From positions 1 to 25,666 of the IMG/VR virus record IMGVR_UViG_3300030118_001255: 25,666 bases of DNA; one strand, written 5' to 3'. The stretch comes from a virus. Under the pieces are notes generated by a model that searched no databases, was not told where the DNA came from, and was given only the letters and a program-made list of their open reading frames with translations. The position numbers and the translations under genes were made by a program. Positions 8,570 to 25,561 of this stretch are shown piece by piece. The number at the start of each line of letters is the position of its first letter. The first letter of the stretch is position 1.

Positions 8570-8769
8570 CAGTATACTTTTACCTTATCAGGATTGACAC
8601 TTGGAACTAATTTACAAATACACTCGTATGTAACACTTTGACCCACCTCATTCTTGTACTCCTGCTTACTTAAAAATTTTGTGTAGTAAGTACAATCATT
8701 AACAGACTTAAAATACACTCCACCTTGAGCTACTCCGTTCATGTAACAAGCAAGCATAAAGGCTGTCAC
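8569..8769 (-). CDS. Small Cys-containing lysis-cassette protein (66 aa)
   Basis: The start is a GTG at 8767-8769 overlapping the upstream TAG (TAGTGA), so it depends on coupling; the ATG at 8757 lacks a Shine-Dalgarno sequence. The sequence MTAFMLACYMNGVAQGGVYF is a short hydrophobic lead with one Cys, then KSVNDCTYYTKFLS and YECICKLVPSVNPDKVKVY, for four Cys in all. A recurrent marine phage protein looks very similar. Disulfides and export are possible but unproven. Confidence 0.7.
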   Translation of the reverse strand: MTAFMLACYMNGVAQGGVYFKSVNDCTYYTKFLSKQEYKNEVGQSVTYECICKLVPSVNPDKVKVY

Positions 8770-14456: not shown

Positions 14457-15080
14457 CAGTATCTTATTGTATGCGATTTATGGCTTATTATACTATAGTT
14501 AATCTTTATTTCAAATTTTATGTAATTGTTTGTGAAAAACTTGGCACTTGCCTGCGTGCACAACGGCCGTGGCACTCGATTCGTTTTTCTTGTCAATTGT
14601 TTTTTTTTGCAATTTTTTAGCCTCAATTTTGGAAGGATCCTAAGCAATTTTTATTAATTTTTTTCAATTCCTTCTGGAATAAATTTATTAATTTGCGCGT
14701 TTGGATTCGTGGATTAGGTACCAGCTGGGCGCGGTGAAGGATCAAGAATCACGGTTCGCGGATCACGGTAAATTAAAAATTAGTCACGGCTAAAAAAGTT
14801 TAAGCAGCATCTAATAAAGTTAGATTCATTAATACTTAAACGCGGATCTTCGGCGGGCTGGTAAGTGATCTGTAGGTTTCGGATCTGTCCAGACGTCCAG
14901 CGGTGCCTTATTTAACTATTTTAAACCGCAATAATTTAAACCAGATAAATTGAAGTTATCTAGTAAAAATCCCGGTCGATTAGTGGATAAGTTCACGGTT
15001 AAAAATTTAAATTGTTAAGGTTTCCGCGGGTTCTAAAGGTTTAAATTTAATCAGCTTGTAACGGAAGGTTAAAAAGAAAA
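14457..15080. other. Gene-free region with short repeats (candidate packaging/origin/control region)
   Basis: I see no supportable gene in this stretch of about 620 bp. It has AT-rich blocks interrupted by GC-richer islands near 14550-14580 and 14695-14770. TCACGG occurs at 14749, 14763, 14784 and 14993, three of these followed by TAAA within 3 nt. GGATC occurs at 14635, 14739, 14760, 14844 and 14881. The motif TTAAACC is repeated near 14922 and 14936. The position between early units and terL suits a pac/cos site, a replication origin or the late promoter region. Confidence 0.5.
14471..14488 (-). promoter_or_regulatory. Weak copy of the early-unit dyad upstream of terL
   Basis: ATGCGATTTATGGCTTAT keeps the left arm and centre of the dyad (ATGnGATTTAT) but the right arm is degraded. 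It lies 29 nt upstream of the terL start, next to TATAAT-like text (TTATTATACTATAG on the plus strand). It is a possible promoter or operator for the late block, weaker than the other copies. Confidence 0.4.
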
Positions 15081-15100
15081 AAGCCCCATAAATGGGGCTT
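15073..15100 (-). terminator. Intrinsic terminator at the end of the 15.1-15.6 kb unit
   Basis: A 9-bp perfect stem (AAGCCCCAT / ATGGGGCTT, 15081-15100) with a 2-nt centre is followed on the minus strand by a T-rich tract (TTTTTTCTTTTT). It ends the leftward unit of the 107-aa and 37-aa genes before the gene-free region. Confidence 0.85.
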
Positions 15101-15120
15101 AAATCGAGCTGGATAATTTA

Positions 15121-15234
15121 TTAATGCGGGTAGGCAATTAATAAAATTAAAATAGCAAATAAGATTATTACTGGAAAAAAAAGAAGTTCAGTAATTAAAA
15201 TAAAAATTTTCCTAAGTTTTAAATAAGTTTTCAT
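15121..15234 (-). CDS. 37-residue single-pass membrane protein
   Basis: The ATG at 15232-15234 overlaps the upstream TGA by four bases (ATGA) and the TAA is at 15121-15123. It starts MKTYLKLRKIF and continues with about 24 hydrophobic residues (ILITELLFFPVIILFAIL and on) ending IAYPH. A basic N-terminus followed by one membrane helix suggests an N-in membrane peptide. The coupling overlap, and a terminator that starts 20 nt past the stop, support it. Candidate roles include superinfection exclusion or membrane modulation; none is shown. Confidence 0.6.
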   Translation of the reverse strand: MKTYLKLRKIFILITELLFFPVIILFAILILLIAYPH

Positions 15235-15554
15235 TTACTTAAAACTCCGTTTTCAATCGGGGTATTCAAATATTTTGAATCGGTTTTATATCCTCCATCA
15301 TAAAATTGAAGCTCTGATTCTCCTTTATGGAGTACGGCTCTTTTTATTAATTGCTTATCAATATAAAAATGAAATTCTCTATCGCCGTTTTCGTGTAGTC
15401 GGTGGGTTGTGCAATGTTTCAAAAATAAATGACTATTTTTTGAACTGGTACCGACTCTTACTTCTACCTCTCCCGTATTTTTTACGCCGTAACTTTTACA
15501 GCTATTATAAATACAAGCTGTGATAATATTCCAGATTGGATATTGTCTAGACAT
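15231..15554 (-). CDS. Conserved hypothetical early protein (107 aa)
   Basis: The start MSRQYPIWNIITACIYNSCK followed by SYGVKNTGEVEVRVGTSSKN is one I recall from marine phages and from roseophage/SAR11-type genomes. The rest is beta-rich with HLFLKHCTTHRLHENGDREF and HFYIDKQLIKRAVL. No catalytic motif is evident. It is the first gene of its unit, behind a strong terminator, a dyad copy and the TATAGGAG leader. It is coupled to the 37-aa membrane protein. Confidence 0.75.
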   Translation of the reverse strand: MSRQYPIWNIITACIYNSCKSYGVKNTGEVEVRVGTSSKNSHLFLKHCTTHRLHENGDREFHFYIDKQLIKRAVLHKGESELQFYDGGYKTDSKYLNTPIENGVLSK

Positions 15555-15578
15555 TTTGTAAACTCCTATAATATTAAA

Positions 15579-15596
15579 ATGTGATTTATCCCATAT
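15579..15596 (-). promoter_or_regulatory. Early-unit dyad (operator/promoter), copy identical to 18990-19007
   Basis: ATGTGATTTATCCCATAT contains the symmetric pattern ATG-n-GAT-TT-ATC-n-CAT. On the minus strand it is preceded by TATTAT and the terminator of the upstream unit, and followed by TATAGGAG and the start at 15554. The 18 bases are identical to those at 18990-19007. Confidence 0.65.
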
Positions 15597-15598
15597 AA

Positions 15599-15634
15599 TA
15601 ATAAAAAACCCGTTAAAGTCAATTAACGGGTTTT
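15599..15634 (-). terminator. Intrinsic terminator after the 96-aa gene
   Basis: A 12-bp perfect stem (AAAACCCGTTAA / TTAACGGGTTTT, 15605-15616 and 15623-15634) with a 6-nt loop is followed on the minus strand by TTTTTTATTATT. It separates the 15.6-16.3 kb unit from the next one. Confidence 0.88.
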
Positions 15635-15655
15635 AAGCAGCTCTTTTTGAATTTA

Positions 15656-15946
15656 TTAAATATGTGAATATTTTTTTAATTTTTTTCTGATTTTTTTACT
15701 ATCTAATAAATAATAATAAAGCTTGTCTATTAAATCATCTGGAATAAATCCATCATTAGAAAGTTGTAGACAATCGGCAATAGTTAATTTTTCAACTTTT
15801 ACCGTGTGCCTTCTATTTACTTCCCTTTCATCAAAATCTTCATCAGCTAAATTATTTATATTTATGTCATCAAAATTTATGACGTTTAAACCTACCTGAT
15901 TTAAATTATTCATAAGCTGATCTAAATTTAATTTATCTTTTGGCAT
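15656..15946 (-). CDS. Hypothetical acidic early protein (96 aa)
   Basis: I do not recognise this protein. It is Asn/Asp-rich in the first half (DQLMNNLNQVGLNVINFDDI, then NINNLADEDFDEREVNRRHT). A helical second half ends in a basic stretch (KKIRKKLKKYSHI). The start lies inside the end of the 116-aa gene (14-nt overlap) with GGAG upstream, and a terminator follows. Its AT-rich codon use matches the neighbours. Confidence 0.65.
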   Translation of the reverse strand: MPKDKLNLDQLMNNLNQVGLNVINFDDININNLADEDFDEREVNRRHTVKVEKLTIADCLQLSNDGFIPDDLIDKLYYYLLDSKKIRKKLKKYSHI

Positions 15947-16283
15947 TTTTTAATTTCTCCTCTCTAGCGTCTAATATTTGTTGTTCTTTTAACTTTTTAC
16001 TAAACCATTTTCTCATAGGTGTATTACCTGAGTTTGTTTTTAAACCTATAAACTTTTTCAATAAATCCATATCGGCAAGTATTGATTTAAAAGTTTTTGG
16101 TTCATAATGAAAAGGGCAACCGTTAAACATTTCAGCTATAGAAATTCTATAAAAAACTTCCTTAATATTTTTCTCGGTAAAATGTCCAATTTCAATTACC
16201 ATTGTACAATAAATCATCTCAGTAATTACCTGATCTGATACGCCGTCTAAATTACATTCTTTATAATTATAATGTAAGGCCAT
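15933..16283 (-). CDS. Hypothetical early protein (116 aa)
   Basis: The family is not recognised. It is a helical protein with TEMIYCTMVIEIGHFTEKNI and KEVFYRISIAEMFNGCPFHY in the first two thirds. The last 30 residues are basic (RKWFSKKLKEQQILDAREEK). It opens its transcription unit behind a terminator and an extended -10-like TGTATAAT, with the standard TATAGGAG leader, so expression early in infection is likely. Confidence 0.7.
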   Translation of the reverse strand: MALHYNYKECNLDGVSDQVITEMIYCTMVIEIGHFTEKNIKEVFYRISIAEMFNGCPFHYEPKTFKSILADMDLLKKFIGLKTNSGNTPMRKWFSKKLKEQQILDAREEKLKNAKR

Positions 16284-16303
16284 TTAATTTTCTCCTATAA
16301 GGT

Positions 16304-16326
16304 TTGTGATATGGGATATTATACAT
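16304..16326 (-). promoter_or_regulatory. Promoter region with extended -10 and a diverged dyad
   Basis: On the minus strand ATGTATAATATCCCATATCACA has an extended -10 (TGTATAAT) followed by CCCATATCACA, related to the GGGATAAATCACA of other units. The adjacent TACATATATGTA (16322-16333) is a perfect 12-bp palindrome. It feeds the gene starting at 16283. Confidence 0.5.
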
Positions 16327-16331
16327 ATATG

Positions 16332-16364
16332 TACAAAAAATAAAAGCCCCGTCTGGACGGGGCT
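16332..16364 (-). terminator. Intrinsic terminator after the DUF932 gene
   Basis: A 9-bp stem AGCCCCGTC / GACGGGGCT (16345-16364) with a 2-nt centre is followed by TTTTATTTTTTG on the minus strand. It lies 29 nt past the DUF932 stop. Confidence 0.88.
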
Positions 16365-16392
16365 AATATCGGCGTTAATATGTAGGTAGTTT

Positions 16393-17547
16393 TTAACTTG
16401 CCATTGCTACCCTATTCCAATCGGTTTTACCTAGGTTTAAAACTTTCCCGCCTAAGCGCTGCCAAAAATCTACGTTGTCAGGATCAGCAGTATTACCCAC
16501 GGCAGTACAAGCGTTAACAAGTGTTGCCCTATTAATTTTTTGTGACTGCTCATAACCTGATTGTCCTATGGTCTGAAGTAAACCCTCTAATACATTGCTA
16601 GTTTCTTTTTTAGATAAAGTTAAAACTTTTCCTAAATTTTCAACTGATTCATTCATGGGTACGTTAACTACGTCTTCCTTAGCTCTTCGCATCTTTTCAA
16701 TGTTTTCATCAAAAGCATCTCTACTAGCATATGAGCTAACAATATCCCTGAGCTGAAGTTTTAAGCTATGGTTGTCGGCTTGTTTAGTTTCATCAGTTAA
16801 TACATTCCAAGTATCGCCGTCCCTCGCGCTAGTAATATGTGCCTTTCGGGTTACATTCTCGGTTTGCATACCATTTAAACAAGCCAGCGTCCAATTTATA
16901 CCAAAAACTGCTACTGATCCTGATCCAGTTTCGGAATTACTAATTCCAATTCCATGCGCCATTGTATCGCCTACCCCTGCATCAGCTTGTATAACTTCAG
17001 ATTTTAAACGTATGTAAAGTTTTTTATCTGTATTGGCAAAGTTAACTATTTTCCAGCAAGCATCCGACTCTCCAAGTGTTGGTAAAGCTGATTCCAATAA
17101 ATCAGAATTATCAAAAGTCTTAAATTTATCAGATAAAAAAGCTCTAGCCGTACCCGTATGATTGTCATAATTAAAGGGGTTTGTATGATTTGCATTATCA
17201 AAAGTTCTAACCATACGTTTGGAGTTTTCTTTTTGCCAGATAGCGTTAATCAAATTATCCATTTCTCTCGGATAGTTCTGTTGTAAACGTCTAGCCGTTG
17301 GCGTCGCTATCTCAGCCTTTTGAGCTATTTGGTCAAAACAATGTTGATTAACATTAAGTATTTTAGTCGGCTCGCCTTGGTTCGCTTCCATAACAATCTG
17401 ACTATGTGCAGTTTCTCCTTCGTTCTGCAAAGTTCTAAACTGAAGCTGATTAGTCGGCGCTATGTAGTCTTGCTTCATTTTATTCTGTTCAGTAATAACA
17501 TGAAGCATATCTTCTAAAGATCTATTTTCGTTTTCTAAATGTCGCAT
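16393..17547 (-). CDS. DUF932 family protein (384 aa)
   Basis: The middle carries the family pattern. RAFLSDKFKTFDNSDLLESA is followed by LYIRLKSEVIQADAGVGDTM, then HGIGISNSETGSGSVAVFGI and NWTLACLNGM. DUF932 proteins occur on phages and plasmids and are sometimes annotated as phage/plasmid-like TIGR03299 proteins. Their biochemical activity is not settled as far as I know. The N-terminal 100 residues are polar and helical, and the length is normal. The gene is alone between two terminator hairpins, with a dyad/promoter upstream of the first hairpin, so its expression may be attenuated. A TATAGGAG leader is present. Confidence 0.85.
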   Translation of the reverse strand: MRHLENENRSLEDMLHVITEQNKMKQDYIAPTNQLQFRTLQNEGETAHSQIVMEANQGEPTKILNVNQHCFDQIAQKAEIATPTARRLQQNYPREMDNLINAIWQKENSKRMVRTFDNANHTNPFNYDNHTGTARAFLSDKFKTFDNSDLLESALPTLGESDACWKIVNFANTDKKLYIRLKSEVIQADAGVGDTMAHGIGISNSETGSGSVAVFGINWTLACLNGMQTENVTRKAHITSARDGDTWNVLTDETKQADNHSLKLQLRDIVSSYASRDAFDENIEKMRRAKEDVVNVPMNESVENLGKVLTLSKKETSNVLEGLLQTIGQSGYEQSQKINRATLVNACTAVGNTADPDNVDFWQRLGGKVLNLGKTDWNRVAMAS

Positions 17548-17573
17548 ATTTTTCTCCTATATAAAATGCAATT

Positions 17574-17600
17574 AAAAAAAGCGGGGTGTGATGCCCCGCC
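17574..17600 (-). terminator. Terminator-like hairpin between a promoter and the DUF932 gene
   Basis: The stem is GCGGGG / CCCCGC (17581-17586 and 17594-17599) with a 7-nt loop, followed on the minus strand by seven T. It is unusual in lying downstream of the dyad/promoter at 17606-17631, inside the presumed DUF932 leader. It can act as the terminator of the upstream gene or as an attenuator. The loop reads CATCACA, like the ATCACA of the dyad copies. Confidence 0.8.
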
Positions 17601-17608
17601 TTAATAGT

Positions 17609-17626
17609 ATACGATTTGTCTTATAT
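17609..17626 (-). promoter_or_regulatory. Early-unit dyad overlapping a -10 (DUF932 unit)
   Basis: ATACGATTTGTCTTATAT has the pattern ATA-n-GAT-TT-GTC-n-TAT with one mismatch. On the minus strand TTGACA (17631-17626) precedes it and TATACT (17611-17606) overlaps its far end, but the spacing is only 14 nt. It sits directly at the 3' end of the 233-aa gene. Confidence 0.6.
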
Positions 17627-17627
17627 G

Positions 17628-18329
17628 TCAAACTAGTTTACCAAAATCTCCCGCTATATGATGCCTTAATACAGTTCCGTATGGTAGTTCCTGAGCGAAT
17701 TTTAAAAGTTTTAGTTCATCAGAATCTTCATCAGCTGTCTTAGTTGTGGCCTCCCAGTGTAATAAAACATTTCCACCAGTTGCATAACAACCGCCCTTAT
17801 GTATTTCACTACCCGCCTTTTTCTTATAAACGCCGTGATCGGTAAACCCTACAATAAAGTTTCTATCCATACGACTACATAAAGGTTTTCCATTTCCGCA
17901 AGTACTACAATCTGTACTAGTATATTCTGCGGGGCATCTAACTATTTTATGATCGTTAATAGTTTCTGATTTGCCATTTGTTTTCCAAAATGTTTCTTTT
18001 ACGTTTATTACTGAGGGTACGAATGAATTTAAAAACAAGTCGGCTAAGTTTCGAGCTGAATAGTTTATAACAGTCTTACCTATCTTTAATTTATGTTTCC
18101 ATAAACTAGGGTTAAAATGTGAGTAAGTAAAACTAACGCCGCCTTTTGGGACGGCGTCAGATACTGCATCAAGATAGCTAAGATCTATTTCAGTTGCACC
18201 CGCTGAAGTGTCAGGTTTTAAATTACAATCGATTGGGCAAGTTGCAAATTTATCAGCTCCACCCGCTCTATATGTTACTGCACAATTTGTAGTTTTTTTC
18301 GCAGTTGATTTTTTAACTAATTTCAACAT
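17628..18329 (-). CDS. DUF7227-like Cys-rich protein with unusual block order (233 aa)
   Basis: The blocks in order are MLKLVKKSTAKKTTNCAVTY; ATCPIDCNLK (C31, C35); GGVSFTYSHF; INYSARNLADL; VRCPAEYTSTDCSTCGNGKP then LCSRMDRNFIVGFTDHGVYK; and last GGCYATGGNVLLHWEATT then YGTVLRHHIAGDFGKLV. In the family as I remember it, the GCYA...HW...AGD blocks follow the first Cys pair directly, so they would be N-terminal. Here they are at the C-terminus. The Cys pattern suggests metal binding. The function is unknown. It overlaps the upstream gene by 17 nt and has GGAGG before the ATG. Confidence 0.7.
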   Translation of the reverse strand: MLKLVKKSTAKKTTNCAVTYRAGGADKFATCPIDCNLKPDTSAGATEIDLSYLDAVSDAVPKGGVSFTYSHFNPSLWKHKLKIGKTVINYSARNLADLFLNSFVPSVINVKETFWKTNGKSETINDHKIVRCPAEYTSTDCSTCGNGKPLCSRMDRNFIVGFTDHGVYKKKAGSEIHKGGCYATGGNVLLHWEATTKTADEDSDELKLLKFAQELPYGTVLRHHIAGDFGKLV

Positions 18330-18774
18330 TGTTTTGCACCCTCCATATTTTAGCTACTTTATGTTCAAATTTGTCTTCCAGATATTCTATTATGCAAGTA
18401 AGCTCCGATTGGGTGTAGTCTTTTGCATAATCAGATTTTTCATACTGCTTAATAGTTTTAGATACATGATAAAAAATATCTTCATAATCAGTAAATGTTT
18501 TTAACTTTGGATCTTTAAACCATTCGCTTAACAAGTCATAAAAAACAAGAAATTTGTAAACTGGATTTTCTTCGTGAGCAGAATCTAATATTTTTTTATA
18601 CTTATTTGCCATATCTATTTTTGAAATTAAGTCTTTAGTTATTTTATTAGACCATTCCTCATTACTCATTTTATTGTGAGAAACATTCTCAGGATCATAG
18701 TGAATACCAAATTTTTCAAATACAATATCCAGTACTTCTCCATCTGTTAAATCTTCATATTTATCTTCTTCCAT
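18313..18774 (-). CDS. Hypothetical helical protein (153 aa)
   Basis: I use the ATG at 18774 (MEEDKYEDLTDGEVLDIVFE) because GAGGAGG lies 5 nt upstream; an ATG at 18804 would lie within the preceding gene. The protein is Lys/Asp/Glu-rich and helical (NPVYKFLVFYDLLSEWFKDP, YTQSELTCIIEYLEDKFEHK). No known domain is recognised. It sits mid-unit, with its start overlapping or abutting the 66-aa gene stop, so it is coupled. Confidence 0.7.
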   Translation of the reverse strand: MEEDKYEDLTDGEVLDIVFEKFGIHYDPENVSHNKMSNEEWSNKITKDLISKIDMANKYKKILDSAHEENPVYKFLVFYDLLSEWFKDPKLKTFTDYEDIFYHVSKTIKQYEKSDYAKDYTQSELTCIIEYLEDKFEHKVAKIWRVQNNVEIS

Positions 18775-18775
18775 T

Positions 18776-18976
18776 TTAGTCCTCCTCTTTTTTTGAATAT
18801 GCAATAACTAAAAAGTCTATATCTTCGAGTGATCTATCGTCTTTCTCAGGATCTTCGATAAAGTCTGCAAGTTTATAATGTGATTTACCCCCGAACCAAG
18901 CCGTTCCGTCTTTGGTGTTCATAGGTATCCACCCGTTTTTGTCTAGGTGTTTAAGTTGGTCTTTATTTAGAAACAT
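18776..18976 (-). CDS. Hypothetical small early protein (66 aa)
   Basis: I do not recognise it. It starts MFLNKDQLKHLDKNGWIPMN, continues with a central WFGGKSHYKLADFIEDP and ends in an acidic region (DDRSLEDIDFLVIAYSKKEED). It is first in its unit, 13 nt downstream of a dyad copy with TATAGGAG, which implies a very short mRNA leader. The Gly-rich hinge and acidic end suggest a small globular protein; DNA mimicry is possible but not shown. Confidence 0.7.
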   Translation of the reverse strand: MFLNKDQLKHLDKNGWIPMNTKDGTAWFGGKSHYKLADFIEDPEKDDRSLEDIDFLVIAYSKKEED

Positions 18977-18989
18977 TAATTTCTCCTAT

Positions 18990-19007
18990 ATGTGATTTAT
19001 CCCATAT
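18990..19007 (-). promoter_or_regulatory. Early-unit dyad (operator/promoter), identical to 15579-15596
   Basis: ATGTGATTTATCCCATAT has ATG-n-GAT-TT-ATC-n-CAT symmetry. On the minus strand TTTTGTAACAAT precedes it and ATAGGAGAAATTAATG follows almost at once. The start codon is only 13 nt from the dyad, so transcription must start within or just before it. Confidence 0.65.
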
Positions 19008-19017
19008 TGTTACAAAA

Positions 19018-19045
19018 TAAAAAAGGCCGTGTCAATCACGGCCTT
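19018..19045 (-). terminator. Intrinsic terminator before the 18.3-19.0 kb unit
   Basis: A 9-bp perfect stem AAGGCCGTG / CACGGCCTT (19023-19031 and 19037-19045) with a 5-nt loop is followed by TTTTTTATTTTG on the minus strand. It ends the unit that starts at 20524. Confidence 0.88.
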
Positions 19046-19050
19046 AATTC

Positions 19051-19128
19051 TTACTTTCTACGGCGTTTCATATGTTTCTCATAATCATCGCCAAAAAGAC
19101 GTTTTAACAGATAGTGTATCAAAAACAT
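19051..19128 (-). CDS. 25-residue mini-gene with strong ribosome site
   Basis: The ATG is at 19126-19128 and the TAA at 19051-19053. The sequence is MFLIHYLLKRLFGDDYEKHM plus KRRRK. AAAGGAGG lies 4 nt before the ATG, as good as any Shine-Dalgarno sequence in the window. It fills the space between the 141-aa gene and the terminator. It has a short amphipathic or hydrophobic head and a basic tail. It may be a real peptide, but length alone cannot prove it. Confidence 0.5.
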   Translation of the reverse strand: MFLIHYLLKRLFGDDYEKHMKRRRK

Positions 19129-19142
19129 TTTGCCTCCTTTCA

Positions 19143-19568
19143 TTATTCATTAATTTTTCTCCAATGCTCAGGTACTCGAAAAAAATCATTGCCGTCGGTC
19201 TCTAGATCTCCATTTTTATTTGGCTTCGTCGAGTAGATAGCGTCCTCTCTTTCATCAGTAAGATCATTTATATAAAAGTTCATATCAAAATATTCATTTC
19301 TAAAATAGAAACTATGCCAATCATCGCCACTATCAGGATTTAAATGATTTTTATAATAATCTTGATATGCCTCTCTCGCTTTAGTTCTGAACTCTCTATT
19401 GTTTTCGTACAACCATTCCATACTAGGTTTGTTTCCGTCTTCATCTCTTTTATAAAAACGAACTATGTAAGCTATGTCATCGTCCACAATCTCCATATAG
19501 TCCCAGTTAGTGTGGCCAACCATTTTTTGAGAGGCCTCGTCTAAATAGTCTGAATCATATTTAGCCAT
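19143..19568 (-). CDS. Hypothetical acidic protein (141 aa)
   Basis: I chose the ATG at 19566-19568 (MAKYDSDYLDEASQKMVGHT), with GAGGAG 7 nt upstream; upstream in-frame ATGs lie inside the preceding gene. It is Asp/Asn/Tyr-rich (DDDIAYIVRFYKRDEDGNKP, FRTKAREAYQDYYKNHLNPD, FRNEYFDMNFYINDLTDERE) with a net negative charge. It overlaps the upstream gene by 8 nt. The family is not recognised; many early phage inhibitors have this size and charge, but no role is shown. Confidence 0.7.
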   Translation of the reverse strand: MAKYDSDYLDEASQKMVGHTNWDYMEIVDDDIAYIVRFYKRDEDGNKPSMEWLYENNREFRTKAREAYQDYYKNHLNPDSGDDWHSFYFRNEYFDMNFYINDLTDEREDAIYSTKPNKNGDLETDGNDFFRVPEHWRKINE

Positions 19569-19977
19569 TGGTTTTCTCCTCTGAACAATATTGACGTTTC
19601 CACATTTCAATATTAGGCCAATTACATTGCGGATCATTTCCAATGGTATCGTAGTCCATCCAACCATTAGATTCATCGACACCTTTTAAGAAAGCGAGAT
19701 ATTCTTCTTCGCTATCAAAAGTATATTCTTTGATATCGTCTGCGCTTTTAGAACTACCCCAAGCTATGTGGATTTTTATTGGTTCAAACTTTCTCAACAA
19801 AGCTTTTAGTTTTCTGTAATCTTTTTTTAAATCTAACTCACTTTCATAATGAAAACCAAGTTGGGTTTTTGAGTTTACAGCGTCAAGTCCCTGAGAAAGA
19901 CCCGTAGACAATATGGCTCTCATTTCAACCACACAGCTTTTCAACAAGTCTAACTCTTCTTTAGATAGATTATTCAT
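19561..19977 (-). CDS. Hypothetical early protein (138 aa)
   Basis: The N-terminal third is helical (NLSKEELDLLKSCVVEMRAI). The middle is basic (LKKDYRKLKALLRKFEP). The C-terminal part has HIAWGSSKSADDIKEYTFDS then EEEYLAFLKGVDESNGWMDY. The last segment resembles small proteins that recur on marine phages with Trp and a Phe-Asp-Ser-Glu-Glu turn, but I know no function. Its ATG is directly after the upstream TGA with GGAGGG before it. Confidence 0.7.
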   Translation of the reverse strand: MNNLSKEELDLLKSCVVEMRAILSTGLSQGLDAVNSKTQLGFHYESELDLKKDYRKLKALLRKFEPIKIHIAWGSSKSADDIKEYTFDSEEEYLAFLKGVDESNGWMDYDTIGNDPQCNWPNIEMWKRQYCSEEKTNG

Positions 19978-20262
19978 TCAACCCTCCACAAACTTTGAAA
20001 GATCAACATCACAATACTCAGCGACATCTTTAGGACATTTAAAACGAGTGAACAAAAGCTTGGCATCTTGTAAGATGCCTCGCTCTTTTCTTCTACTCTC
20101 AGTTAAACTAAGCTCTCCGTCTTCAGTAATGCTTTCAGGAGCTAGGCCACACACAATGTTTTCCCAACATTCCCTAGCCTCAGCTTTGGTTTTTGGAAAA
20201 GCACCTCTAACATAGTTCCATCTTGGATCATCATTGGGAAATATAATTTTAACTCTAGCCAT
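19978..20262 (-). CDS. Hypothetical early protein (94 aa)
   Basis: It starts MARVKIIFPNDDPRWNYVRG and continues AFPKTKAEARECWENIVCGL. The charged C-terminal half has ESRRKERGILQDAKLLFTRF. Three or four Cys are scattered without CxxC pairs. GGAGG lies before the ATG. It overlaps the upstream 89-aa gene by 8 nt and abuts the next gene, so it is mid-unit. The family is not recognised. Confidence 0.7.
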   Translation of the reverse strand: MARVKIIFPNDDPRWNYVRGAFPKTKAEARECWENIVCGLAPESITEDGELSLTESRRKERGILQDAKLLFTRFKCPKDVAEYCDVDLSKFVEG

Positions 20263-20524
20263 TCTGCACCTCCATAGATCTCCAAACTATTTGGTTTTCT
20301 TGCTCAAGGCTGACATTGATGTGCTTATTGAAGTTATCGCAAACTTGTCTGCAATGTCCCCAAGATCCTACAAACTTATCCATCTCATGCGGATCATTTG
20401 GATCGGCCTTGCCCAACGGCTGATAGCCTCCTTGGTTCCAAGTTACTTTTGCAACTCGATATATACCTCTCTGTCCTTCTTCTTTGACAGGCGTATAACA
20501 ATGTTTGTCTTCAGTTTTAATCAT
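20255..20524 (-). CDS. Hypothetical early protein, first of its unit (89 aa)
   Basis: It starts MIKTEDKHCYTPVKEEGQRG and continues IYRVAKVTWNQGGYQPLGKA, with GSWGHCRQVCDNFNKHINVS near the end. It is a compact beta/alpha protein with Cys, Trp and His conserved-looking positions, and I cannot place it. It opens the 20.5-19.05 kb unit behind a dyad copy and a TATAGGAG leader. Confidence 0.7.
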   Translation of the reverse strand: MIKTEDKHCYTPVKEEGQRGIYRVAKVTWNQGGYQPLGKADPNDPHEMDKFVGSWGHCRQVCDNFNKHINVSLEQENQIVWRSMEVQNG

Positions 20525-20549
20525 AACATTTCTCCTATAAATATGTGTT

Positions 20550-20567
20550 ATAGGATTTATCTTATAT
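20550..20567 (-). promoter_or_regulatory. Early-unit dyad (operator/promoter) of the 20.5-19.05 kb unit
   Basis: ATAGGATTTATCTTATAT has perfect ATA-n-GAT-TT-ATC-n-TAT symmetry. It is 26 nt upstream of the ATG at 20524 and immediately downstream of the nuclease-like gene stop. On the minus strand CTATAACA at its end is -10-like. Confidence 0.65.
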
Positions 20568-20571
20568 ATTA

Positions 20572-21006
20572 TTAATCAAATATCAAGGAAAAAGTTTTAG
20601 ACCAATCAAAAGGGTATTCTGTTTTGAAGATAGGTTTGAGTTTCAGACCTTTTATTCTCAGGTCTACTGCCTGACTACCCGCATACAAATACATTGTATC
20701 TTGTGATCTAACAAGAACCCATACGGAAGCTCGGCTGTGTCTGGTAAGCCAAGCGATTTGTAATGAAGATAGTCTAACTACATTACCACTAGTAACTTTC
20801 AGCTCTACAAAATGAAATTGGTTTTTATCATCACAGATCATTAGATCAGGAATACCAAGTGTCATCCAGTTTTCTATTCTAGTTAGCAAAATGTCTTTGG
20901 GTAATCGGCCGACGGCTTTTTTAATTTCTTGAAAGAACCCGCTTTCCTTCTTCGGCTGAACTGGTGGCCTCGTGGTCAATAACTTCTTCAGCGTATCTCG
21001 GTTCAT
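20572..21006 (-). CDS. VRR-NUC-like nuclease (144 aa)
   Basis: Residues about 20-75 contain SGFFQEIKKAVGRL, IENWMTLGIPDLMICDDKNQ and FHFVELKVTSGNVVRLSSLQ. This is the E...G-I-P-D...E-x-K pattern of the VRR-NUC / PD-(D/E)XK superfamily (E28, D54, E68, K70 by my count). The spacing Gly-Ile-Pro-Asp then about 13 residues to Glu-Leu-Lys is typical. Such small phage enzymes are Holliday-junction or end-processing nucleases. Its start lies 86 nt inside terS with AAGGA 5 nt upstream, so it is coupled to the packaging gene. Confidence 0.75.
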   Translation of the reverse strand: MNRDTLKKLLTTRPPVQPKKESGFFQEIKKAVGRLPKDILLTRIENWMTLGIPDLMICDDKNQFHFVELKVTSGNVVRLSSLQIAWLTRHSRASVWVLVRSQDTMYLYAGSQAVDLRIKGLKLKPIFKTEYPFDWSKTFSLIFD

Positions 21007-21481
21007 ATGAATCCTTTATTTCTTTGAGAGCTTTCAACACTTCATCCTTGGACATACTATCAATAGTGCCATGACGGATTTCAGATTTATTAATGTAGAT
21101 ATTACCATTTGCCTGACCTCTCCTGAACTCAGCTTGTACAGCCGCTGAATATGCACCATTTTCTAGTGCAACATCTCTTATTCTTTGTAAGTCTCGTAAA
21201 TGTCTTTTGTAAGTAACACCGTACTTTTCATCCAGCTCGTCCCGATAAATCTGTATTGCCCTACAGACATGTGGGCAAATATCAGGATTAGTCATTTCGT
21301 ATGCACGAGTGTGAGCGGAAGAAGCTGGGAAGCCCGCATTGATTGCAGCTTCTCTCATGGTTATTGTTCCATCGTTGCTAACAAGTTCTTTTACAAAAAG
21401 CTCTTGTTTTCGCGATAGCTTACTATGAATATCTACTTTAGGCCTTCCCCGACCTTTTTTAATAGGCTTCAAATTATTCAT
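20921..21481 (-). CDS. terS: Putative terminase small subunit
   Basis: An AT-hook-like GRGRPK at residues 10-15 is followed by a helix-turn-helix segment, LSRKQELFVKELVSNDGTIT then MREAAINAGFPASSAHTRAY. Its order (QxxFVxEL...AAxxAGF...A..RA.E) is that of Terminase_2-type small subunits. A long helical oligomerisation part (LDEKYGVTYKRHLRDLQRIR, ENGAYSAAVQAEFRRGQANG) and an acidic tail come next. It would recognise the packaging site and load TerL. It is 6.5 kb from terL. A GTTAC iteron cluster lies 80-180 bp upstream of its start. Confidence 0.75.
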   Translation of the reverse strand: MNNLKPIKKGRGRPKVDIHSKLSRKQELFVKELVSNDGTITMREAAINAGFPASSAHTRAYEMTNPDICPHVCRAIQIYRDELDEKYGVTYKRHLRDLQRIRDVALENGAYSAAVQAEFRRGQANGNIYINKSEIRHGTIDSMSKDEVLKALKEIKDSYEPRYAEEVIDHEATSSAEEGKRVLSRN

Positions 21482-21560
21482 ATCTCTATATATACACCAG
21501 AAATTATTTTTTTACAAAAAACTTTTTGAGGCCCATTAAGGCCAAAATTGATTTAAGAAG

Positions 21561-21661
21561 GTTACATATTTAAAAACACAAGTGTAACCAATTATGTAAC
21601 CAGTAAAACTGTTGATACATAAGGGTTACAGAAGAAAGTTACATAAGTTACACCAGTTACG
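21561..21661. repeat. Cluster of seven GTTAC iterons upstream of terS
   Basis: GTTAC(A/G) occurs at 21561, 21625, 21638, 21647 and 21656. The inverse TGTAAC occurs at 21583 and 21595. The last three direct copies are spaced exactly 9 bp, and the two inverse copies 12 bp. The surroundings are AT-rich and gene-free. Such arrays are typical of sites for replication initiators, repressors or terminase small subunits. Confidence 0.7.
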
Positions 21662-21709
21662 CCTATATTTAGTAAAAAAATATTTTTTTATTTTCAGCTC
21701 TATATATAA

Positions 21710-21740
21710 AGGGGAGTAACTTTTGTCACTCCCCTTTTTG
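21710..21740. terminator. Terminator hairpin between the 155-aa gene and the iteron region
   Basis: An 11-bp stem AGGGGAGTAAC / GTCACTCCCCT (21710-21720 and 21725-21735) contains one G-T pair and a TTTT loop. The T run (TTTTTGTTTTT) is on the plus strand; on the minus strand only TTTATATAT follows. It lies 8 nt after the minus-strand stop at 21744, so it probably ends that gene, and it may also stop rightward transcripts. Confidence 0.75.
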
Positions 21741-21743
21741 TTT

Positions 21744-22211
21744 TTAAGCAGAAAGTTGTTTTAATACATCTTTCTTTGGATGAATATAATCTATAATAGC
21801 ACTAACAAGCACCCTATGTGATTTACCTCTACCCATATATTTTCCGGCTTCTTCAAAAGCTTTTTGAAGTCCGAACTTATATATTAAATCCCAGACTATA
21901 GATTCGTTTGATACAGCTTTCAAGCTTTTGACCGCTTTGCCCTGAACATAAATAGTACTTTTATGACTACTAAAATTACTTTTATGAACTCTTACAAAAT
22001 CCTGAATATAACTTATTGGAAAATTACCCTTTCCATCAAAGTTTTTACTAGAAGTGTAGTAAGACGGAGCATTTAAGCTATATGGATCACCCAAGGTATC
22101 GTAAATTTCATCTTTAGATAATTTACTCAAGAAAGTTTTTACTTTTCTTGCCATGATCTTATCAAACTTATTTGCTTTATTAATTAACTTTTGTTTTTCA
22201 CTTTTAAGCAT
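21744..22211 (-). CDS. Hypothetical basic protein (155 aa)
   Basis: The family is not recognised. It is Lys/Ser-rich and helical at the N-terminus (MLKSEKQKLINKANKFDKIM, ARKVKTFLSKLSKDEIYDTL). The middle is Tyr/Ser-rich (NAPSYYTSSKNFDGKGNFPI). The end is MGRGKSHRVLVSAIIDYIHP. The charge and size would suit DNA or RNA binding. It stands alone in its unit behind a leader of about 100 nt and a dyad copy, with TATAGGAG directly before the ATG. Confidence 0.7.
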   Translation of the reverse strand: MLKSEKQKLINKANKFDKIMARKVKTFLSKLSKDEIYDTLGDPYSLNAPSYYTSSKNFDGKGNFPISYIQDFVRVHKSNFSSHKSTIYVQGKAVKSLKAVSNESIVWDLIYKFGLQKAFEEAGKYMGRGKSHRVLVSAIIDYIHPKKDVLKQLSA

Positions 22212-22298
22212 TACGCTCTCCTATATTATGTGATTAAAAATAAGAAACTGCTTTGGCCTAAACCAAAAGTTTTTTGACACCAACAATTTCAAACAGAT

Positions 22299-22316
22299 AT
22301 GAGATTTCTCCCATAC
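22299..22316 (-). promoter_or_regulatory. Early-unit dyad (operator/promoter) of the 155-aa gene
   Basis: ATGAGATTTCTCCCATAC keeps ATG-n-GAT-TT and the C-CAT outer arm, with inner symmetry GAGA-TT-TCTC. It lies about 88 nt upstream of the start at 22211. The leader between them contains CTTTTGG / CCAAAG, able to form a small hairpin, and ATGTGATTA, a partial second copy near 22228. Confidence 0.55.
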
Positions 22317-22335
22317 TTAATAGTACCATAATGAG

Positions 22336-22357
22336 AAATTAATACAAGTATTAATTT
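22336..22357. repeat. AT-rich 10-bp inverted repeat
   Basis: AAATTAATAC / GTATTAATTT are perfect arms separated by AA. It lies between the methyltransferase-like gene and the dyad at 22299. There is no T run on the minus strand, so it is not a clear terminator. It may be a weak terminator, an mRNA 3' end stabiliser or an operator. Confidence 0.4.
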
Positions 22358-22456
22358 TATCTAATAAAAACAATGACTTATTTATTTAACAAGTTAACTA
22401 ATATTTATATTTCAAAATTATTTTTCCTGATTCGCTTACGAATGATTCGCCGGATT

Positions 22457-23176
22457 TCACTCAAAAAGGTTTCCTTGCGAGGCGTGACGCGTGGGTCGAG
22501 GATGTGGAGTTGCCACACTTTCTTCATAGTCTGTTCGTCGTTCCAGCTTGGCCCTTGTTGGTGGGATCCATTGAACTTCAGTTTTAAATTTTGGAACCCG
22601 TCTTTGAGAGCTTTCCCAGATGAACCAAGCATAGCTAGTAGCCGTTGAAGCATTTGCTGACAGACGACCTTTAATGATTGGAACTCGTTCTGTAAATTGA
22701 GCAATAATTGTTGGCGGGTTTTGTTTAAATAGTCTTTCATATCGACCTACGCTTTCTATGAATTGTGTCCGAGCAAAGATAGCCGTAGATTCTTTAGCCA
22801 AGGGTAAGGCCTTGAGTACAAATTCTTCAGCTAGATTGAACGGCGGGTTAGTAATAATAAAATCGTACTGCTCATTGACGTCCTTAGACAGAAAGTCTGC
22901 GATACGATCTTGTCCATAATCAGCTATGTCACATGACATAACTTCAGGGAAATATTCTTCGAGGACCTTGGCCATATGTCCAGCGCCGCACGCTGGTTCT
23001 AGGCAAGTGTATTTAACAAAGTCATCGTCGGGTTGTTGCGGAAAAATAAAATTTGGCTTTAGTATGTGTTCAAACAAAGCACGGGTTGCCCAAGGCGGGG
23101 TAGGAAAGTAATCAAGACTATCCTGATCCTCATGCCGTTGGGACATAACCGCGTGTGTTTTGTTTTGTTCAGACAT
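22457..23176 (-). CDS. DNA adenine methyltransferase-like protein (239 aa)
   Basis: Motif X-like YFPTPPWATRALFE is at residues 23-36. Motif I LEPACGAGHMAK is at 59-70 (AdoMet binding). The acidic loop SCDIADYG is at 81-88. The catalytic motif IV YDFIITNPPFNLAEEF is at 104-119 (NPPF 110-113). TSYAWFIWES is near 180. This is the layout of small phage N6-adenine methyltransferases without a visible recognition domain. No partner endonuclease is seen, so protection from host restriction or regulation is more likely than a restriction-modification pair. It overlaps the upstream gene by 8 nt. Confidence 0.85.
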   Translation of the reverse strand: MSEQNKTHAVMSQRHEDQDSLDYFPTPPWATRALFEHILKPNFIFPQQPDDDFVKYTCLEPACGAGHMAKVLEEYFPEVMSCDIADYGQDRIADFLSKDVNEQYDFIITNPPFNLAEEFVLKALPLAKESTAIFARTQFIESVGRYERLFKQNPPTIIAQFTERVPIIKGRLSANASTATSYAWFIWESSQRRVPKFKTEVQWIPPTRAKLERRTDYEESVATPHPRPTRHASQGNLFE

Positions 23177-23468
23177 TTACAGGCACTACCCATTCATCAC
23201 TATCAACATACCGAGCATCAGGGTATCTTGTCCTTATTTGATCTATCTCACAATCAAAACAAGTATACTCAATATCACATTGACTACATTCTTTGTTAGG
23301 CTCAATGCTGTCATCGTCAATCGGCTTGTGATTATATACCGGCTTACCATCGTCGTAATAAACGTCACATTGACTACAAGTCTCAGGAACTTCGTCGTCT
23401 GCAAGCATGGAGCTGTAGATGTAGCCACAATCGGTACAACTAAACTTACCTTCTTGCTCTCTAACCAT
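23169..23468 (-). CDS. Cys-rich zinc-ribbon-like protein (99 aa)
   Basis: I chose the ATG at 23466-23468 (MVREQEGKFSCTDCGYIYSS); the in-frame start at 23495 lies deeper in the previous gene. There are four C-x2-C pairs: CTDC at the front, CSQC with DVYYDDGKPVYNHK in the middle, CSQC again and CFDC. The first pair plus EVPETCSQC is a rubredoxin-like knuckle arrangement; the second half repeats CSQC. It would bind two metals. Its role next to a methyltransferase is unknown. Confidence 0.75.
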   Translation of the reverse strand: MVREQEGKFSCTDCGYIYSSMLADDEVPETCSQCDVYYDDGKPVYNHKPIDDDSIEPNKECSQCDIEYTCFDCEIDQIRTRYPDARYVDSDEWVVPVNV

Positions 23469-23646
23469 TTTCAATCGACTCCTTTTCCATTTCAACTAGG
23501 CCGATAGTCCTTTCTAGCTGAGTTAATTCTTCTTTCCACATCGGTTCATCAGGCTCACATTCTACTTGTTTCTTTTTTTCAACAACCATGTTGCCTAAAA
23601 ACTCAAGGGTAATATCCATATATAATTTATCATATCCTCTAGCCAT
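23461..23646 (-). CDS. Small helical acidic protein (61 aa)
   Basis: The ATG at 23644-23646 overlaps the previous stop by 8 nt with AGGGG upstream (a GTG at 23649 is an alternative). The sequence is largely one or two charged helices (ITLEFLGNMVVEKKKQVECE, then WKEELTQLERTIGLVEMEKE). It has no recognised domain and is mid-unit between the 80-aa protein and the Cys-rich protein. Confidence 0.65.
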   Translation of the reverse strand: MARGYDKLYMDITLEFLGNMVVEKKKQVECEPDEPMWKEELTQLERTIGLVEMEKESIENG

Positions 23647-23881
23647 CACTGCCCCTCATATTAAATTCATCAAATAACTTATAACAAGCCTCATCTAAAG
23701 CTTTGATATCAGATAACATAAGATCATTGATATCTCTAATTGACATAAGAGCAGTATTCACAGCCTCGTAAGCATCGTGAACCGCTTGCAGCTGTCCGAC
23801 AGTCATGGCTCCCATAGCTTTTTGTTTCTCTGCGATCTCTTTATCTCGCTTTATTTCCCATTCTTCTTTTTTATTAGTCAT
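23639..23881 (-). CDS. Small helical early protein, first of the methyltransferase unit (80 aa)
   Basis: It is a charged coiled N-terminus (MTNKKEEWEIKRDKEIAEKQ) then helices with GQLQAVHDAYEAVNTALMSI and an acidic end. It is not recognised; the composition suggests a helical bundle or dimer. It opens the 23.9-22.4 kb unit behind the structured leader at 23900-23979, with TATAGGAG before the ATG. Confidence 0.7.
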   Translation of the reverse strand: MTNKKEEWEIKRDKEIAEKQKAMGAMTVGQLQAVHDAYEAVNTALMSIRDINDLMLSDIKALDEACYKLFDEFNMRGSDG

Positions 23882-23899
23882 TTTTTTCTCCTATATAGT

Positions 23900-23979
23900 T
23901 GGTGTGGAGCGCCTTGAGGTTACGTCACTAAGATAAATGCTGAGATCTACCACAGTCCTGAACGAGCTAAACACTCCAC
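23900..23979 (-). ncRNA. tRNA-like structured leader of the methyltransferase unit
   Basis: On the minus strand the 80-nt element begins GTGGAGT and ends GCTCCAC-A-CCA. This gives a 7-bp acceptor-like stem (one G-T pair), a discriminator base and an encoded CCA. Near its 5' side TTTAGCTC and, 15 nt on, TGGTAGATC resemble a tRNA D-arm. No normal T-arm or anticodon arm can be drawn, so it is not a standard tRNA. A sigma70-like promoter predicts transcription to start at its first base, and the ribosome site follows within 10 nt. It may be a cis-regulatory RNA or a decayed tRNA. Confidence 0.45.
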
Positions 23980-23986
23980 GATTCCA

Positions 23987-24016
23987 GGTATACGATTTAT
24001 CTTATACGTTTGTCAA
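23987..24016 (-). promoter_or_regulatory. Promoter with dyad operator (methyltransferase unit)
   Basis: On the minus strand TTGACA (24016-24011), an 18-nt spacer and TATACC (23992-23987) form a sigma70-like promoter. The perfect dyad ATACGATTTATCTTAT (23990-24005, plus strand) lies between the two boxes and overlaps the -10. This is the clearest copy showing operator geometry. Confidence 0.7.
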
Positions 24017-24017
24017 T

Positions 24018-24063
24018 AAAAAAAGCTCCGAGGAAACATGGAGGACACGAAACTCGGAGCTTT
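24018..24063 (-). terminator. Intrinsic terminator with a 20-nt apical loop
   Basis: An 11-bp perfect stem AAAGCTCCGAG / CTCGGAGCTTT (24022-24032 and 24053-24063) is followed on the minus strand by seven T. The loop is unusually long and on the minus strand contains TCCTCC, the anti-Shine-Dalgarno core. It ends transcription from the 253-aa gene or from the short putative promoter at 24119-24148. Confidence 0.85.
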
Positions 24064-24118
24064 ATCACATTTTATATAGGATAAGAGCAAATGAAAAAGG
24101 TTACTCACTCTTAAATTT

Positions 24119-24148
24119 GTTATCGCATATATTTATATACGCTGTCAA
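24119..24148 (-). promoter_or_regulatory. Possible promoter for a short RNA ending at the 24018-24063 terminator
   Basis: On the minus strand TTGACA (24148-24143), an 18-nt spacer containing the near-palindrome GCGTATATAAATATATGC, and GATAAC (24124-24119) are seen. Transcription would give an RNA of about 95 nt with no open frame. The -10 is poor. Confidence 0.35.
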
Positions 24149-24150
24149 AC

Positions 24151-24912
24151 TTATTTTTTACCGATACTTCTCAAACTTTCCATAACTTTGTCTATATCAG
24201 GCTCCGTGCCGTTTGGATCATAGACACATTTGTACTTTTTCGGGCACCAGCTTTCAATTAACATTGTAAATGTTTTATTACCGCCTTGGTATATACAAGC
24301 TCTTTTGTCTGTATATTTTGATGTGATTCGCTTCTTTAAACGACAAGTTGTGTATTTTTTCTTAATAATCTTACCCTGATTTTCTAATTGTTGTTTAGTA
24401 TAAGCACGGGGCGTGAAGGTATAGCCATCCGCTTTTGCTTTTTTAACCCAGATACTAGCCACCAGTACAGCAAAACCACCGATAATAGATACGACTATCA
24501 ACCAAGTTACCGCTTCTCCTATCTGTCGTCTGAGCTGTTGCTGTTTATAAATAGTTTCTTGCCGTTGTTTTCTAATCTGCCCTTCCATTTTGAGCAAATC
24601 GTCGTAGGCCTGTGGCCCGTAAGTCATGTTAAGAAAGATTTTGAGCTCGTAGCGCTGCTCTTCCAACTTCTTCTTTGCCGCGTAAGCAGCAAGAGCTGCC
24701 TCTTCGATAGAACCGGCCTTGAACAACTTTCCGAAAAGGGGAGGATTCTTTGCTTGTTTCTCGGCATTGTCTATGTCTGAGACAGCTCCCATCCAACGTC
24801 CGACGTCTGAAGCCATTGATTCAATATCTTTAGCTGCGGCAAATCCTTGTTTGATTGCATTAAAAGCGCTATTAGCCACGCTCATAGCTGCGGTAATTGT
24901 CAACGGGTCCAT
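24151..24912 (-). CDS. Coiled-coil single-pass membrane protein (253 aa), marine phage family
   Basis: The N-terminus MDPLTITAAMSVANSAFNAI and the segment RWMGAVSDIDNAEKQAKNPP then LFGKLFKAG are, by recollection, a recurrent marine phage protein. Residues 70-130 are a charged coiled coil (AAYAAKKKLEEQRYELKIFL, GQIRKQRQETIYKQQQLRRQ). Residues about 134-156 form one membrane helix (VTWLIVVSIIGGFAVLVASI). The C-terminal 90 residues are basic with four Cys (TTCRLKK, ACIYQGG, WCPKKYKCVY), probably outside the cytoplasm and disulfide-linked. The function is unknown. The Shine-Dalgarno sequence is weak. Confidence 0.75.
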   Translation of the reverse strand: MDPLTITAAMSVANSAFNAIKQGFAAAKDIESMASDVGRWMGAVSDIDNAEKQAKNPPLFGKLFKAGSIEEAALAAYAAKKKLEEQRYELKIFLNMTYGPQAYDDLLKMEGQIRKQRQETIYKQQQLRRQIGEAVTWLIVVSIIGGFAVLVASIWVKKAKADGYTFTPRAYTKQQLENQGKIIKKKYTTCRLKKRITSKYTDKRACIYQGGNKTFTMLIESWCPKKYKCVYDPNGTEPDIDKVMESLRSIGKK

Positions 24913-24991
24913 AATTTACTGTAACACACTTTTAAAAAAAAATAAAAGTCAAGACTGTTATTATAAAAAAAGTTATTTATAGTTAGAAGTT

Positions 24992-25171
24992 ATGACCAAT
25001 CAAACATTTAGGGGTAGACCAGTGACAATATGTTGTACTTGTGGCGGAAAAAAATACGCATCGACCTGTAAATGTCACAAAATTAACCATAGACCGATAA
25101 AAAAAGGAGGAAATAAATGGATTTACCAAACAGAAGACCATGTGTCACGACTGACGTTGGAGAAGGACTAG
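24992..25171 (+). CDS. Small plus-strand zinc-knuckle-like protein (59 aa)
   Basis: It starts with an ATG at 24992 and ends at TAG 25169-25171. The sequence MTNQTFRGRPVTICCTCGGK then KYASTCKCHKINHR has C14-x2-C17 and C26-x-C28-H, a plausible zinc knuckle in a basic context. The C-terminal 18 codons overlap the next gene in another frame, and its Shine-Dalgarno sequence (AGAAG) is weak. The Cys pattern supports it. It begins the only rightward unit in the window. Confidence 0.55.
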   Translation: MTNQTFRGRPVTICCTCGGKKYASTCKCHKINHRPIKKGGNKWIYQTEDHVSRLTLEKD

Positions 25172-25329
25172 CCGTTAGTGTATCATACCACCCAGAAACT
25201 AACGAGGCGGTTGAGGTATTTGTATCTAGTAGGGGTAAAAAGGCATCTGATGGGCCCATGACAGACGCGTTATATAACTTAGGTGTTCAGGTATCGAGTA
25301 TCATACAAAATAAGGAACGAATCACTTAG
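25117..25329 (+). CDS. TSCPD-like small protein (70 aa)
   Basis: It starts MDLPNRRPCVTTDVGEGLAV and continues SVSYHPETNEAVEVFVSSRG, ending in a helix (TDALYNLGVQVSSIIQNKER). The order LP-R-R...T...strand...ETxExFv...Gly-Lys...helix is that of TSCPD-domain proteins, stand-alone relatives of a segment of class II ribonucleotide reductases. Here it could be a nucleotide-metabolism accessory, but this is inference. AAAGGAGG lies before the ATG. Its 3' end overlaps the convergent RHH gene by 8 nt. Confidence 0.65.
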   Translation: MDLPNRRPCVTTDVGEGLAVSVSYHPETNEAVEVFVSSRGKKASDGPMTDALYNLGVQVSSIIQNKERIT

Positions 25330-25519
25330 AAACTTGGTTGATTCGCTTCATATTAGCTTCAACGAACTCTTCAACTCTCTGCTGCTCTTCAGATTTATAC
25401 TGTGAATATATGTATCTGAGCTGGCCGCCTATTGTCCGGCCTTCTTTTTTAGCAGATTGCTTGATCTTTTCGTAGACATCTATCGGTACAAGAACACTTT
25501 TCCACTTGGTTGTATCCAT
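25322..25519 (-). CDS. Ribbon-helix-helix (Arc/CopG-type) regulator (65 aa)
   Basis: I chose the ATG at 25517-25519 (MDTTKWKSVLVPIDVYEKIK), with AAGGAG 5 nt upstream. Residues 6-12 form the DNA-contacting strand (WKSVLVP). Residues 13-25 are helix A (IDVYEKIKQSAKK), then Glu-Gly-Arg-Thr and helix B (IGGQLRYIYSQY), the RHH fold. The rest is a charged coiled tail. Such dimers bind short dyads, and a dyad-like ATGCGATTTTATATGAT lies in its own promoter. It is the best candidate in the window to bind the repeated dyads; this is untested. Confidence 0.75.
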   Translation of the reverse strand: MDTTKWKSVLVPIDVYEKIKQSAKKEGRTIGGQLRYIYSQYKSEEQQRVEEFVEANMKRINQVSK

Positions 25520-25543
25520 AATTATCTCCTTTTGTAGGATATT

Positions 25544-25561
25544 ATGCGATTTTATATGATA
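25544..25561 (-). promoter_or_regulatory. Diverged dyad/promoter of the RHH gene
   Basis: ATGCGATTTTATATGATA keeps the left arm ATGnGATTT of the shared dyad. On the minus strand it reads TATCATATAAAATCGCATAA, with CATAAT as a possible -10 and TTGAAA 15 nt before it. It suggests autoregulation of the RHH gene. Confidence 0.45.

Follow-up and report, generated by a model that had tools for sequence, protein, structure and literature searches.

Repeated dyads upstream of accessory operons in HTVC023P-like marine phages: the probable operator of a small ribbon-helix-helix protein

A dyad repeated at the promoters of minus-strand operons in a tailed-phage DNA fragment of 25,666 bp (the window, i.e., the whole stretch analyzed) is probably the operator of a small ribbon-helix-helix (RHH) protein encoded in the same fragment, which, judging from sequence, would act as an autoregulated Arc/omega-like repressor of a multi-promoter regulon. 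The fragment belongs with phages of the HTVC023P/HTVC027P type, sharing 63% terL identity with Pelagibacter phage HTVC027P and 56% with HTVC023P. The minus strand is the coding strand for almost all genes, and the stretch from terL to the RHH gene is filled with mostly small genes (Table 1). In 47 of 48 loci from relatives, the gene directly before RHH is of DNA polymerase size (median 635 aa) and is taken as DNA polymerase A on account of its location and length, following the annotation of the named relatives; this puts the RHH gene at the junction of the replication genes and the small-gene block. RHH-carrying phages are uncultured, marine and widespread, and the RHH gene is found too in phages with a GC content of 0.45-0.55. 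The contigs of the relatives are metagenomic, many of them being fragments.

Table 1. Positions of the dyads, arms and main genes in the window.
Feature	Position	Strand	Remarks
Structural genes	low coordinates of the window		
terL	12988-14442	minus	
Weak terL-promoter site	14469-14488	minus	perfect arm TCGCATA (14470-14476) and a degenerate partner, 3 mismatches
Dyad ATATGGGATAAATCACATTT	15577-15596	minus	promoter of 15231-15554; TTGACT (15617-15622) falls within the upstream terminator
Single arm TCCCATA	16310-16316	minus	just after TATAAT, upstream of 15933-16283
Dyad ATATAAGACAAATCGTATAC	17607-17626	minus	promoter of 16393-17547; left arm overlaps TTGACA, then TACTAT
Dyad ATATGGGATAAATCACATAT	18988-19007	minus	promoter of 18776-18976, 18313-18804 and 17628-18329; TTGACA (19030-19035) is part of the upstream terminator
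Dyad ATATAAGATAAATCCTATAA	20548-20567	minus	promoter of the operon beginning with 20255-20524
Dyad GTATGGGAGAAATCTCATAT	22297-22316	minus	upstream of 21744-22211, terS-like 20921-21481 and VRR-NUC-like 20572-21006
Dyad GTATAAGATAAATCGTATAC	23988-24007	minus	in the promoter spacer, after TTGACA (24011-24016); serves a structured leader and the operon from 23639-23881 to methyltransferase 22457-23176
RHH protein	25322-25519	minus	65 aa, MDTTKWKSVLVP..., proposed repressor
RHH-gene promoter	25533-25559	minus	three direct arms, 10 bp apart, over the -10: TCATATA (25553-25559), TCGCATA (25543-25549), TCCTACA (25533-25539)

Six strong sites (15579, 17609, 18990, 20550, 22299 and 23990) fit the pattern TATRNGA-N4-TCNYATA. 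When ATRNGATTTATCNYAT was searched with up to 2 mismatches, 13 matches were found in the window vs. 1.26 expected, and 0 of 100 shuffles reached 13. A matrix made from the six sites gives them 25.7-28.2 bits, training sites scoring high by construction; the next-best separate place (14471) has 14.4 bits, scores elsewhere in the window do not exceed 15, and shuffles yield 0.15 matches scoring at least 12 bits. When repeated palindromes were sought de novo in the intergenic sequence, the dyad ranked first both in the window and in the relative G001. The strong copies reported in the preliminary description are real. All six are intergenic and lie at promoters of minus-strand operons; since they all stand upstream of minus-strand genes, the minus strand is the functional reading, in which the dyad is TATRRGAYAAATCNYATA. 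The weak copies proposed at 14471, 16304 and 25544 did not hold up as dyads: the first two turned out to be single-arm sites, and the third failed as a dyad and is read as tandem arms.

Across relatives, the consensus loosens to GTATRNGA-NNNN-TCNYATAC. Variation among 51 site families is concentrated in the dyad centre and at the R/Y positions, the arm bases T, A, T, G, A and T, C, A, T being near-invariant. The outer arms had been said to change together; they do so at all six window sites, but R and Y are complementary in 15 of the 51 site families vs. about 22 expected by independence, i.e., there is no covariation. The argument from paired changes therefore fails, although the two-fold symmetry of the dyad stands. 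The centre is mostly NAAN, and in nearly every site its A-rich strand runs with transcription. This fixed orientation is neither required nor explained by a symmetric repressor.

The position of the dyad relative to the promoter elements varies. In 15 site families a TTGAC-type -35 box lies 8-9 bp before the dyad, which then occupies the spacer and supplies the -10 with its right arm, at a distance of 17 bp. A separation of 22-30 bp, seen in 22 site families, brings the left arm to the -10 or close to it, with the start covered by the dyad. A few site families have the -35 at 11-19 bp, and some of the -35 boxes are located inside the terminator of the preceding gene. No clear -10 was found in the 17-bp class (TTGACAATAAATTAAAA-GTATGCGACAACTC). 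Where a dyad arm is the -10, occupancy of the dyad should block RNA polymerase, and the varied positions over working host-type promoters are consistent with a repressor acting by polymerase exclusion. The earlier claim of a symmetric protein site rather than a plain -10 is strongly supported by the linkage to RHH described below, with the correction that the arms do double as -10 hexamers. This double use, together with a centre whose orientation tracks transcription, is also what one would expect if the dyad were just an extended consensus of early promoters and had no protein dedicated to it. We consider such an explanation very improbable, because the two-fold conserved arms stand in different registers with respect to the -35, the arm reappears as direct repeats at the RHH gene, and the remaining modules of these genomes are free of the dyad.

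The arm is also found outside the dyads. At the terL promoter it is conserved, 5 of the 6 distinct upstream sequences having it, and with one good arm present, weaker control of terL is predicted. The promoter of the RHH gene, thought earlier to hold a diverged copy of the dyad, carries the tandem direct arms TCATATA, TCGCATA and TCCTACA instead. The dyad arm is present in 52 of 59 divergent RHH promoters, vs. 5.4 in shuffles. A second direct copy of TCNYATA stands at exactly +10 in 38 of 42 RHH promoters, and a third at -10 in 24 of 42. These tandem arms cover the -10 region of promoters that have a TTG -35. One 7-bp element is used in two layouts, inverted at the target promoters and direct at the RHH gene.

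The RHH protein scores 25.7 bits against Pfam RHH_5, just below the cut-off of 26. Profile comparison gives pArc with an E-value of 4e-4, and Arc is the best solved relative by sequence. A model of the monomer has a pLDDT of 85, the N-terminal strand not being seen in it, and its top fold matches are CopG, Arc, AmrZ and MatP, with probabilities of 0.9-0.99 and E-values above 0.1. By these tests of sequence and modeled fold, the protein is predicted to belong to the ribbon-helix-helix (Arc/MetJ/CopG) superfamily, whose members have a strand at the N-terminus followed by two helices. Dimers of such proteins bind DNA cooperatively through their strand pair.

In near-complete relatives the dyads occupy the stretch from the RHH gene to terL, and the replication and structural modules show no cluster. 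In 105 distinct RHH loci, some of which were fetched by the dyad itself and scored with a matrix trained on such sites, 125 sites of at least 17 bits lie downstream of the RHH gene (544 kb) and 0 upstream (430 kb). The RHH strand carries 111 of the 125 downstream sites; among loci with a flank of at least 4 kb, a site is present downstream in 45 of 50 and upstream in 0 of 42. On account of the dyad-fetched loci and the dyad-trained matrix, the test was repeated on protein-fetched loci with a matrix from the window only. With this matrix of the six window sites, 46 divergent RHH loci show a site in 15 of 16 long downstream flanks and in 0 of 25 upstream; the held-out test gives 59 matches vs. 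a mean of 1.3 for column-permuted matrices. Similarly, RHH-fetched loci contain 52 dyad matches at no more than 1 mismatch, and permuted palindromes give 0.6. Of the 41 contigs of 8 kb or longer that a scan of IMG/VR with the DNA pattern alone returned, 22 have RHH; the RHH-less ones mostly hold single sites in other contexts or end before RHH would start.

The dyad cluster is absent in HTVC027P, 023Pt_psg01, DSL-LC04 and HTVC023P, where 0-1 matches at 2 mismatches are found, as in shuffles, and de novo search reveals no comparable palindrome family. These four phages share DNA polymerase, helicase and terL. Three of them have no RHH match, and HTVC023P has a remote RHH-like match only (E 0.003). 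This remote relative, gp13 (MDIDKWKSVAIKR...), at 8538-8756 of HTVC023P (L008), stands without a TCNYATA arm upstream and may have an operator of its own.

Co-occurrence alone cannot name the binder, since DNA polymerase, helicase and other genes are linked to the dyads as tightly as RHH (46-47 of 48 loci). It is the named relatives free of dyad clusters, together with the arms in the RHH promoter, that point to RHH, and the promoter arms do most of this work. Another regulator, encoded by phage or host, might act on the dyads and control the RHH gene as well; such a protein would agree with the equal linkage of other genes, and a host factor could explain the single-site matches in other phages. 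This appears unlikely, considering that no HTH_3 protein above the cut-off was detected in 8 relatives (one HTH class searched), that RHH is the sole known DNA-binding regulator class among the families near the RHH gene, and that tandem arms in that gene's promoter are typical of autoregulation.

Dyad-like sites were also seen in RHH-less phages, namely GGGTATGGGATAAATCCCATACCC, and TTGACACCYATTGTAATGTATGAGATAAATCCCATAT before a gene. A single such site without RHH is present in L234, L239 and L254, and in L236, L240, L255, L260, L263, L289 and L293. Matches of the TTGACACCYATTGTAAT family and of the GGGTATGGGATAAATCCCATACCC pattern in other phages were set aside, being single-site and RHH-free.

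A repeated, oriented element upstream of operons may in addition recall the promoter of a T7-like single-subunit RNA polymerase. Pfam PF00940 (T7-type RNA polymerase), for which T7 itself was positive, has no match in 7 RHH-bearing relatives (49-61 kb) or in 2 named relatives; a study of HTVC027P reports that this phage depends on the host polymerase and that its early genes are of unknown function (PMC12753301), and sigma-70-type -35 boxes stand beside the dyads. The T7-like reading was rejected on these grounds and retains next to no likelihood. A role as a temperate immunity or lysogeny repressor was rejected as well: the tyrosine integrase Pfam PF00589 was found in 0 of 8 relatives, with 14 of 14 controls positive. 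The earlier suggestion that the dyads and the RHH gene form one regulon is strongly supported by linkage on many divergent contigs, by the arm in the RHH promoter and by the absence of a T7-like polymerase.

From these sequence data we infer binding by RHH, repression rather than activation, and the timing. Each RHH dimer would bind one 7-bp arm, TCNYATA. At the target operons two facing arms, with 4 bp between them and centres 11 bp apart, would be bound over a sigma-70 promoter, and at the RHH gene two or three direct arms, repeated at 10-bp intervals across the -10. The TTGAC/TATA promoters would be used by host RNA polymerase early in infection; as RHH accumulates, it would occupy the arms that overlap the -10, spacer or start site, shutting off the accessory block from RHH to terL and, via the arms in its own promoter, limiting its own synthesis. 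Early shut-off with autoregulation is preferred in view of the absence of a tyrosine integrase and of a T7-type polymerase and the reliance of HTVC027P on the host polymerase. RHH could alternatively be an activator or have a dual, concentration-dependent effect like omega of pSM19035, an RHH protein that binds heptads and is reported to activate or repress its promoter (PMC4803016). This is improbable, more so than a different regulator, since the dyads overlap the -10, spacer or start in several registers and are accompanied by good -35 boxes, an arrangement that fits polymerase exclusion.

Viewed as a repressor, the phage RHH protein may be compared with several known systems. Omega recognizes 7-bp heptads in direct and inverted repeat, regulating itself and further promoters (PMC4803016). 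By description, the phage system shares with it a small RHH protein and a 7-bp arm in palindromic and non-palindromic layouts that include its own promoter. The phage arm, however, is TCNYATA and not NATCACN, the arms are spaced at 10-11 bp, and the dyads serve an accessory-gene block rather than copy control and partition. By analogy, the phage system appears omega-like in its working, with no claim of identity with omega. P22 Arc, whose half-sites are about 11 bp apart and whose operator lies in a promoter spacer, is likewise a phage RHH repressor, as proposed here for the present protein, and ranks with the top matches by sequence and by fold; the present system differs in its six or more dispersed promoters, its tandem autoregulatory site and its operator. 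SvtR, AvtR and F55 of archaeal viruses are also virus-encoded RHH regulators, SvtR repressing its own promoter and binding other viral sites and F55 using tandem repeats (PMC5569661), but they have archaeal promoters and unrelated operators.

Repeated elements, mostly in one orientation, before many small phage genes are known as SAS/ESAS in mycobacteriophage cluster K (PMC3203893) and as stoperators in cluster A. Unlike the dyad, ESAS has 17-bp arms, a variable spacer and no known binder (PMC3203893), and stoperators are reported to be sites of immunity repressors with an asymmetric recognized sequence (PMC9283540). Aca regulators resemble the RHH protein in being small and in being paired with a single regulatory sequence common to early accessory genes (PMC11065993); Aca8, however, is a wHTH protein, and a search for defence or anti-defence names among the target genes here gave weak methyltransferase matches only. 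In the literature searched, no description was found of the operator, the regulon or the double use of the arm (inverted and direct) in these phages. The protein class and the regulatory logic are known; the proposed operator and regulon are new.

Two RNA features accompany the dyads. A conserved structured leader of about 90 nt (window 23895-23987, minus strand) lies between the 23988 dyad and gene 23639-23881; it has the pattern TTTAGC..GTTCAGGACTGTG ... CTTAGTGACG..ACCTCAA and is closed by a covarying stem, with two-sided changes in 5 of 27 pairs. An Rfam search of the window, leader included, gave no match. The dyad precedes TTTAGC by 16-17 bp in 31 of 31 distinct leader copies with enough upstream sequence. 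A terminator-like hairpin with a U-run (17573-17602, minus strand) directly follows a dyad promoter, before the gene of a 384-aa protein (16393-17547, minus strand; phrog_1362, unknown function) that has its own dyad promoter in many relatives. The hairpin is kept in relatives with altered stem sequence (GCGGGGC, AGCTGGG, GCGGGT), and is either an attenuator or the terminator of the upstream gene.

In these HTVC023P-like and related marine phages, portable promoter-operator-terminator cassettes may tie exchangeable accessory genes to a single RHH repressor at the junction after DNA polymerase, so that a new gene arriving with its cassette would join the early regulon, the first cassette carrying an undescribed leader RNA; we hold the arguments for and against this picture to be about evenly balanced. 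Shared early promoters have been used in archaeal viruses to find anti-defence genes (PMC11065993), and the phage operator could similarly guide the search for co-switched small genes. In general, the dyad and RHH make up a predicted protein-DNA pair that is testable, and the dyad operator would directly point to those functionally uncharacterized small genes that switch together.
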